The notes under the pieces are model-generated. The model was given only the letters and a program-made list of their open reading frames with translations, was not told the origin of the DNA and searched no databases. A DNA stretch of 47,239 nucleotides from a bacterium (GTDB taxonomy: Bacteria; Latescibacterota; Latescibacteria; Latescibacterales; Latescibacteraceae): positions 1 to 47,239 of the forward strand of contig JAJFUH010000165.1 in NCBI GenBank assembly GCA_021372535.1. The letters are read 5' to 3'. This document shows positions 1 to 46,421 of the stretch, piece after piece (position 1 is the stretch's first letter; each line of letters opens with the position of its first letter). The position numbers were made by a program, and so were the translations under genes.

Positions 1-162
1 TATTGCTCCGGCGAATAAAGAATGATACCGGAAGTAAAAAAACATGGATTCCCGCTTTCGCGGGAATGACGGCTTGGTGCGCAGTTACACAGATTGTATC
101 GAATCACCTTTATAGGGCTCAATTTCCGAAATATATTTCACCGTTTAATCGCCGGAGCAATA
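1..162. mobile_element. MITE-like inverted-repeat element, copy 1
   Basis: The segment is bounded by imperfect terminal inverted repeats, TTGCTCCGGCGAATAAA at 3-19 and its inverted match at about 144-160, each flanked outward by TA (1-2 and 161-162). No ORF lies inside. The core carries a perfect hairpin at 48-67 (8-bp stem, loop TTTC). The second copy at 9656-9758 has the same ends but a different core. Short inverted repeats and a TA target duplication fit a non-autonomous relative of IS630/Tc1-mariner elements; the family assignment is inference. The window starts exactly at the left TA, so sequence further out is not visible. Confidence 0.7.
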
Positions 163-9489: not shown

Positions 9490-9775
9490 GATCCGGTCTA
9501 TTCATAATTTAAATAGAACGTGGATTTTCGCTGATCGGACGGATTTTCGCTGATTTGTTTTTTTATTATATCTTTTGAGGTATTGACATATAATAGTTAC
9601 TAAAGATAGTATAAATAATAGATTATATATATTTGTGCCCTTGTGTCTTCGTGGTTATTGCTCCGGCGGATAAATAATGATACCAATAGCAGGAATAGAT
9701 GCCGAAACAAGTTCGGCATGACGTCATCCGATATCACTGTTTAATCGCCGAAGCAATAATATTTTCACATATAAT
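9490..9775 (+). repeat. Modular 3'-associated repeat, copy A (interrupted by the MITE-like element)
   Basis: It begins 13 nt after the stop codon of glycosyltransferase copy 1. In order it shows a GATC.GGTCTATTCAT start, ATAGAACGTGGATTT, repeated CGGATTTTCGC units ending in a T-run, the 15-mer GATAGTATAAATAAT at 9605-9619, and TTGTGTCTTCGTGGT. The last module is then split by the MITE-like element and resumes as ATATTTTCAC at 9759. Three other full copies and one start fragment occur in the window. This and the MITE fill the 380-bp gap between the two glycosyltransferases. Confidence 0.75.
9656..9758. mobile_element. MITE-like inverted-repeat element, copy 2, nested in repeat A
   Basis: Left end TTGCTCCGGCGGATAAA starts at 9658, and the right end (inverted TTGCTTCGGCGATTAAA) finishes at 9756; TA flanks both sides. 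The ends match copy 1, and both left ends continue into AATGATACC. The 99-bp element contains a hairpin at 9699-9719 (ATGCCGAA/TTCGGCAT) that differs from the hairpin in copy 1. Removing the element and one TA restores GTGGTTAATATTTTCAC, which matches the uninterrupted repeat end near 45.33 kb. Confidence 0.78.
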
Positions 9776-18806: not shown

Positions 18807-18850
18807 CGTTTCATCTCCTTTTCGGGCTTTTTATTTCTTAACCCGGAATA

Positions 18851-19003
18851 CTCATGAAAATATTCAGCCACGAAGACACAAAATGATATAACATATTATT
18901 TATACTATCTTTAAAAATTACCAGCCGTTAACATACGAAAAACACAAAATACAAATCCGTCAAAATCCGCGTTCTATTCAATTTTTATGAATAGATCGGG
19001 TCA
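18851..19003 (-). repeat. Modular 3'-associated repeat, copy B
   Basis: It reads on the reverse strand, downstream of the stop codon of the 19103-21328 gene. In order it shows GATCTATTCAT, AATAGAACGCGGATTTTGACGGATTTG, the 15-mer GATAGTATAAATAAT (18895-18909), TTGTGTCTTCGTGGC and AATATTTTCATGAG. About 100 nt separate it from the stop codon, the longest gap among the copies. Confidence 0.72.
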
Positions 19004-38987: not shown

Positions 38988-39145
38988 CGATTATGAAACG
39001 GGATACCCGAAGACATGGTGCTTGATGACACATAATATTGCAGTTCCGGACCGGCGATAACCACACGAGCAGGCCCCATCTGCCGCGGAATGAAAACAAG
39101 TTGTAATCGAACAGGTAACATAGTTGACCGTAGTGATTCCAAAAG

Positions 39146-39202
39146 ATGCTGAAACCAGTTCAGCATGACGGCGCTCATGTCACCCTGATTTTATTTCAGG
39201 GT
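39146..39202. terminator. Two hairpins between convergent genes
   Basis: ATGCTGAA/TTCAGCAT (39146-39153 and 39159-39166, loop ACCAG) followed by ATGACGG is the same hairpin type as in the core of MITE-like copy 2. A second hairpin, ACCCTGA/TCAGGGT (39182-39188 and 39196-39202), comes with T-rich flanks. They lie between the propeller gene and the reverse-strand transporter gene and could terminate both. Confidence 0.5.
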
Positions 39203-39274
39203 CTATTACATGCTTTATTATTTCAATGAACGCAATTTTATATAAACATATCCTGTTTGTTCCGGGCTTTTTTA

Positions 39275-46227: not shown

Positions 46228-46421
46228 TCCATGTTATTCATGAAAATATTTTTACCACCAGGACATAAAATTACAAGGAGATATGAACGATTATTTATAC
46301 TATCATGAGTAGTTATTAATCGTTCACATCTAAAAAGATATATTAAAAAAACAAATCCGTGTAAATCCGCCCGATCCGCGTAAATCCGCGTTCTATTGTA
46401 TTTTGCACATAGATCGGGATA
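46228..46421 (-). repeat. Modular 3'-associated repeat, copy D
   Basis: On the reverse strand it begins only about 6 nt after the stop codon of the edge gene, with GATCTATGTGCAAA and ATAGAACGCGGATTTACGCG. Tandem CGGATTTACACGGATTTG and a T-run follow, then the 15-mer GATAGTATAAATAAT (46290-46304), and finally TGGTGGTAAAAATATTTTCATGAA. It is the most complete copy. Confidence 0.75.

Follow-up and report, generated by a model that had tools for sequence, protein, structure and literature searches.

The window, as we call the whole 47,239-nucleotide stretch that was analyzed, carries two members of a dispersed repeat family that we refer to as family A. Its members are very probably non-autonomous MITEs that derive from an insertion sequence of the IS630 family, were moved in trans, and captured REP hairpins of the widespread CGTC type as their middles. 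We base this on shared ends flanked by TA, on a high copy number, on unrelated cores behind the same ends, and on related genomes in which IS630 coding sequence adjoins such ends.

Family A in the window and its genome

The earlier note on this DNA proposed that positions 1-162 and 9656-9758 share their ends, are flanked by TA, and hold two different hairpins. Each of these points was borne out (Table 1). Searching the window for TTGCTCCGGCGAATAAA with up to three mismatches returned exactly four ends, at 3-19 (+), 144-160 (−), 9658-9674 (+), and 9740-9756 (−), compared to an expectation of 0.18; none of 100 shuffles reached four. The terminal inverted repeats (TIRs) are approximately 23 to 25 bp without the TA, longer than first stated, and TA is present at both ends of the long (A-L) and the short (A-S) element. 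Since the window starts at contig base 1, the left flank of A-L is absent. The A-S copy sits within another dispersed repeat. We also noted a larger dispersed repeat (CGCGGATTTTCGCGGAT... GTGTCTTCGTGGTTAAATATTTTC) with many copies, found in the window at 9512-9629, 18842-18969, and 46241-46397, one of which hosts the second A element.

Table 1. Coordinates of family-A features and of a separate hairpin pair in the window
Feature	Position	Strand	Description
A-L element	1-162	+	Family A, long subtype; very probable IS630-type MITE with TA target duplication (TA at 1-2 and 161-162)
A-L left TIR	3-25	+	Terminal inverted repeat
A-L hairpin	45-71	−	CGTC-1 type REP CGTCATTCCCGCGAAAGCGGGAATCCA; stem arms ATTCCCGC/GCGGGAAT at 47-71; class as in PMC3733652
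A-L right TIR	138-160	−	Terminal inverted repeat; corresponds to the 3' end of an IS630 transposase gene (last codons and stop)
A-S element	9656-9758	+	Family A, short subtype; very probable IS630-type MITE, 103 bp including both TA
A-S left TIR	9658-9680	+	Terminal inverted repeat
A-S hairpin	9698-9723	−	CGTC-2 type REP CGTCATGCCGAACTTGTTTCGGCATC; stem arms ATGCCGAA/TTCGGCAT
A-S right TIR	9734-9756	−	Terminal inverted repeat
Third hairpin	39145-39170	−	CGTC-2 variant REP (GCTGAA/TTCAGC) in repeat family C, outside family A
Partner of third hairpin	39179-39203	+	Second, oppositely oriented hairpin GTCACCCTGATTTTATTTCAGGGTC in the same family-C repeat

In the genome that contains the window (assembled as 236 contigs totaling 5.35 Mb), a 19-nt end gave 165 matches with up to two mismatches, compared to 3 for the reversed control, and the 25-nt end TATTGCTCCGGCGNNTAAANARTGA gave 166 compared to 0. 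We fetched 140 stretches around the listed end copies and then paired the ends; family A has at least 70 complete copies in this genome. End pairs numbered 62 for A-S with the ATGCCGAA hairpin (nearly all 100 to 104 bp, typically 103), 10 for A-L with the ATTCCCGC hairpin (161 to 163 bp, with additional A-L copies cut by contig ends), and 2 for a subtype without a hairpin that has the same ends, termed A-M (100 and 101 bp). Ends that are this abundant, and paired, speak against the chance pairing that the earlier note had considered. Being non-coding, 100 to 163 bp long, and present in many copies, the elements have the properties of MITEs. Several contigs, the window included, start inside or at a family-A element, as expected when short-read assembly breaks down at repeats.

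In genome G003, which represents another genus of the same family, the A-S elements measure exactly 103 bp, and a single element of 153 bp, termed Z, has the same ends around an unrelated core. The family-A TIR pattern had no match in viral contigs. A 1,252-bp TIR pair in L199 was rejected, as its left end was judged to be a chance match.

Some copies are rearranged. At L067 (3777-3960), a copy with an insertion is preceded by a tandem array in which the A-S left half is partially repeated three times in units of 68 bp, each unit following ATAAATCCGGGG. In G003, half elements at L191, L198, L204, and L206 consist of the right end and the REP, and unrelated sequence begins directly after the REP stem (GGCATCTAT or GGCATCAAT), so that breaks at the hairpin base recur. 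A contig from a Eubacteriales MAG (L209; JAQTSP010000235.1) holds an A-L copy, interrupted beside a 573-amino-acid transposase-like ORF, and an A-S copy identical to that of the window; this contig is probably misbinned.

TA was found at both ends in 73 of the 85 paired copies. One A-S copy lies within a family-B repeat, where the filled site reads CCAGTAT-TA-element-TA-ACATCGC, and uninterrupted family-B copies read CCAGTAT-TA-ACATCGC (CCAGTATTAACATCGC) with a single TA. Likewise, the flanks of the copy at L043, when joined with one TA, align without gaps to the unoccupied paralogue L108. A single TA in the empty paralogues compared to TA-element-TA in the filled sites is what a TA duplication predicts, with unoccupied repeat copies and paralogues, rather than strain-level empty alleles, serving as the pre-insertion sites. 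At L045, L049, and L067, family-A elements often occur at the TA that ends family-E repeats (ATAAATCCGGGTTA), which suggests that this TA is a preferred family-A target.

IS630 coding sequence at family-A ends

The earlier note predicted a full-length relative with a transposase. A relative with an IS630 transposase does exist: we found IS630 coding sequence joined to family-A ends at four places, as halves or decayed copies: contigs C198 and C3 of a congeneric genome (G001) and contigs C71 and C159 of G003. On C198, the left end TATTGCTTTGGTGAATAAACATTGA is located 56 bp upstream of an ATG that opens MKSTDARTLCSQTQYELR... and continues for 116 codons, open to the contig end. This ORF matches an annotated IS630 transposase (E = 3e-16, 42%) and contains HTH domains by Pfam. 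The other half, at positions 1-76 of C3, comprises the codons HVKKYFKHPSVVYAANVTL and a stop that lies inside the right end TATTGCTCCGGTGATTAAAGAGTGA. Rather than by a continuous copy, the G001 IS630 is therefore represented by two halves, each located at the end of a separate contig. The closest A-S copy of G003 matches the G001 right end at 24 of 25 positions. In G003 itself, the DDE_3 gene on C71 is decayed and terminates within the same inverted repeat. On C159, the left end is followed by the first ~25 codons and, across an internal deletion, by the C-terminal part of IS630; this second copy is a nascent MITE. With the N terminus of a transposase next to the left repeat and the C-terminal stop codon inside the right repeat, the elements can be placed among IS630-type MITEs.

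In the window's own genome, we found no intact IS630 with family-A ends. A DDE_3 search of this genome returned no match, and the one trace detected with a full-length protein query was a C-terminal IS630 remnant (C116), which is decayed and has a diverged end. DDE_Tnp_1 (IS4/IS5-type) was also examined as a candidate parent; it gave 17 matches in three genomes, and the family-A end was present in 0 of the 16 loci fetched.

The IS630 transposase WP_152386499.1 from Azotobacter salinestris is homologous to the transposases of the family-A relatives. The ends of its element begin with TATTAATCCGGC, similar to TATTGCTCCGGC, and the protein ends in ...RSYFRHPKIAYAA-stop, as on G001 C3. Such IS630 elements are autonomous and about 1 kb in length, whereas family A is non-coding.

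From these data, we infer how family A may have arisen and moved. The left end corresponds to the IS630 5' end, i.e., the inverted repeat and the start of the untranslated leader, and the right end to the last transposase codons, the stop, and the right inverted repeat. Acting in trans, a transposase of the IS630 type would recognize the ~23- to 25-bp ends, excise the element, and insert it at a TA that is duplicated in the process. Recent copies that are nearly identical support such movement indirectly. The middle would be dispensable for recognition, which would explain why several unrelated middles have been amplified between these ends. A-S and A-L, the two abundant subtypes, have as their middle a CGTC-REP, a pre-existing mobile-like hairpin that was presumably captured either during formation of the element by internal deletion or through later insertion or recombination.

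Hairpin cores and the ends that carry them

Read on the other strand, the A-L hairpin is CGTC-ATTCCCGC-GAAA-GCGGGAAT-CCA (stem of 8, loop of 4) and the A-S hairpin is CGTC-ATGCCGAA-CTTGT-TTCGGCAT-C (stem of 8, loop of 5). The CGTC-REP class is described as having a CGTC tag, a stem of 8 to 9 bp starting with AT, a loop of 4 to 5, and a short tail (PMC3733652, Di Nocera 2013). By tag, AT stem, and loop size, both hairpins fit this class and resemble its CGTC-1 and CGTC-2 REPs, including the 8-bp stem and, in the A-L hairpin, CCA as the short tail (PMC3733652). The two hairpin cores gave 65 and 131 matches. Among AT-based hairpins in the fetched sequence, which is enriched for these hairpins, GTC was the commonest tag (189 compared to 81 for the next). 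Approximately 0.44 Mb chosen away from known copies contained five perfect CGTC hairpins, too few for statistics. Across 45 older A-S copies that were selected by their ends, identity to the consensus was 91 to 93% for the REP stems and 73 to 79% for the inner arms. Stem changes on the CGTC strand gave 14 G-U pairs compared to 6 A-C, a suggestive difference only. Judged from the higher identity of the stems, the REP may be maintained in A-S copies.

The earlier note also had the second hairpin type occurring alone at 39146-39166. A related hairpin does lie there, but its stem is a variant with three mismatches. Nor is it a loose family-A core: it is paired with a second hairpin and belongs to another repeat family with different flanks (Table 1).

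REPs also occur in other repeats. Family B, of ~200 bp, has the imperfect inverted repeat ATCTGGTTATTCAATTAGTGCATAA, ends unrelated to those of A, and 18 end-paired copies with a REP; it is a second MITE family. Across L044-L168 (e.g., L045 845-1044), we observed two oppositely oriented CGTC-1-like hairpins per family-B repeat in ~46 copies. Family D (134 to 137 bp) has imperfect ends TATACATGACG with the CGTC-REP class inside and may be another IS630-type MITE. The ends of a Methylovirgula IS630 (L262, about 413-440 and 1504-1540) contain TTATACATGAC, similar to family-D ends. Families C and E carry REPs as well; their flanking inverted repeats are weak (C) or were not found (E), and for this reason we do not claim them as MITEs. 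The A-L REP is also found solo in different families of this phylum, e.g., with 65 matches in G006, where flanks look unique and 5 of 40 REPs exceed the 99% background for flanking inverted repeats. Searches for the family-A end returned nothing in G006 and, in G010, one match with 3 mismatches. REPs without A ends elsewhere, together with repeats that carry a REP between other ends, imply that hairpin and ends are independent modules.

It is normal for MITEs to have unrelated middles behind shared ends; family A is unusual in that the middles are CGTC-REPs. As the earlier note predicted, the same ends enclose several unrelated cores, four in total: A-S (103 bp), A-L (162 bp), the hairpin-less subtype (100 bp), and, in the related genus, Z (153 bp). 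When A-S and A-L were aligned locally over the sequence enclosed by their inverted repeats, 65% of shuffles reached the observed score, as did 96% with the REP removed, so that these cores align no better than shuffled sequence and do not match over their whole length. For A-S and Z, 0.8% of shuffles reached the score, which reflects a single short match that we gave no meaning. REP flanks were clustered separately on each side, and cross-tabulation tied each REP subtype to its own arms (A-S, 43; B, 28; E, 13; A-L, 11). The only clear exception was a chimera, L070 (901-1100), in which an A-L left arm is joined at a shared GATTCCCG to a family-E REP and right half. This chimera has lost the A right end and, because of this, is probably immobile.

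We considered whether family A is a modular element with active exchange, in which recombination among copies replaces the hairpin cores and leaves the ends in place. The unrelated cores behind the same ends and the chimera point in this direction. However, the chimera is the one clear swap among REP subtypes that otherwise keep their own arms, it probably no longer moves, and both the A-L copies and the young A-S copies form bursts of near-identical elements whose composition is fixed, which makes this explanation unlikely. The proposal that ends swap core hairpins thus holds for the same ends with unrelated cores but not for the exchange: the cores are fixed per subfamily, and active core swapping is not supported. 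Recombination or deletion between the REPs of neighboring elements could nonetheless yield new core and arm combinations. It is very doubtful that there is one core only, with A-L being A-S (or the reverse) altered by insertion and drift. Both hairpins are shaped GAT-stem-ATGAC, and the last ~20 bp of the A-L right arm are similar to the A-S right arm, but the stems come from two REP families, one with a loop of 4 nt and the other with a loop of 5 nt, and the shuffle comparison does not favor a common core with or without the REP.

If instead a RAYT (Y1 transposase) mobilized the hairpin as such, with the inverted repeats being incidental, the fit to the CGTC-REP class and the occurrence in several repeat contexts would be accounted for. 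We give this almost no credence, as the copied unit spans TA to TA, the hairpin-less subtype keeps the same ends, and CGTC-REPs are reported without a dedicated transposase (PMC3733652). Moreover, we found no RAYT flanked by CGTC-REPs in the window's genome, where the one Y1_Tnp gene is IS200-like and flanked by other hairpins; the arrangement that marks a REPIN/RAYT system, a RAYT gene flanked by the repeat, was thus not seen. We therefore favor IS630-derived MITEs with captured REPs.

Known systems and the spread of CGTC-REPs

IS630-derived MITEs of this kind have close counterparts. RUP of Streptococcus pneumoniae (107 bp) shares with family A its size, TA target, ends in common with an IS630 element, high copy number, and lack of coding sequence, and is proposed to be moved by IS630-Spn1 (PMC2229807). 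RUP differs in its end sequences, and family A has several unrelated cores carrying CGTC-REPs. In Neisseria, the Correia/NEMIS elements, compared here for size and TA analogy only, have two size classes (about 107 and 155 bp), common ends, and TA termini as family A does, but their long form is described as the short form with a 50-bp internal piece, whereas the family-A cores are unrelated (PMC2229807). The anatomy of family A and its presumed movement are known already from RUP and Correia elements (PMC2229807). What is new is family A itself, its IS630 parent, and the systematic presence of CGTC-REP cores in DDE-type MITEs.

CGTC-REPs are usually dispersed without other repeats, whereas here they form the cores of TIR elements; the nearest precedent is CGTC-1 dimers inside 41-bp palindromes in H. 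neapolitanus (PMC3733652). The same study asks whether other transposases move CGTC-REPs. Tentatively, DDE-type MITEs could be a general vehicle for these transposase-less hairpins, with REPs captured repeatedly by MITEs that have unrelated ends, exchanged among these through hairpin recombination, and thereby spread in this lineage although they have no transposase of their own; we regard this as possible rather than probable. Our literature search found nothing on repeats of this phylum, for which family A provides a new MITE family with an IS630 parent. For CGTC-REPs, the IS630-type MITEs and at least one further TIR family described here offer a concrete, testable route of spread.
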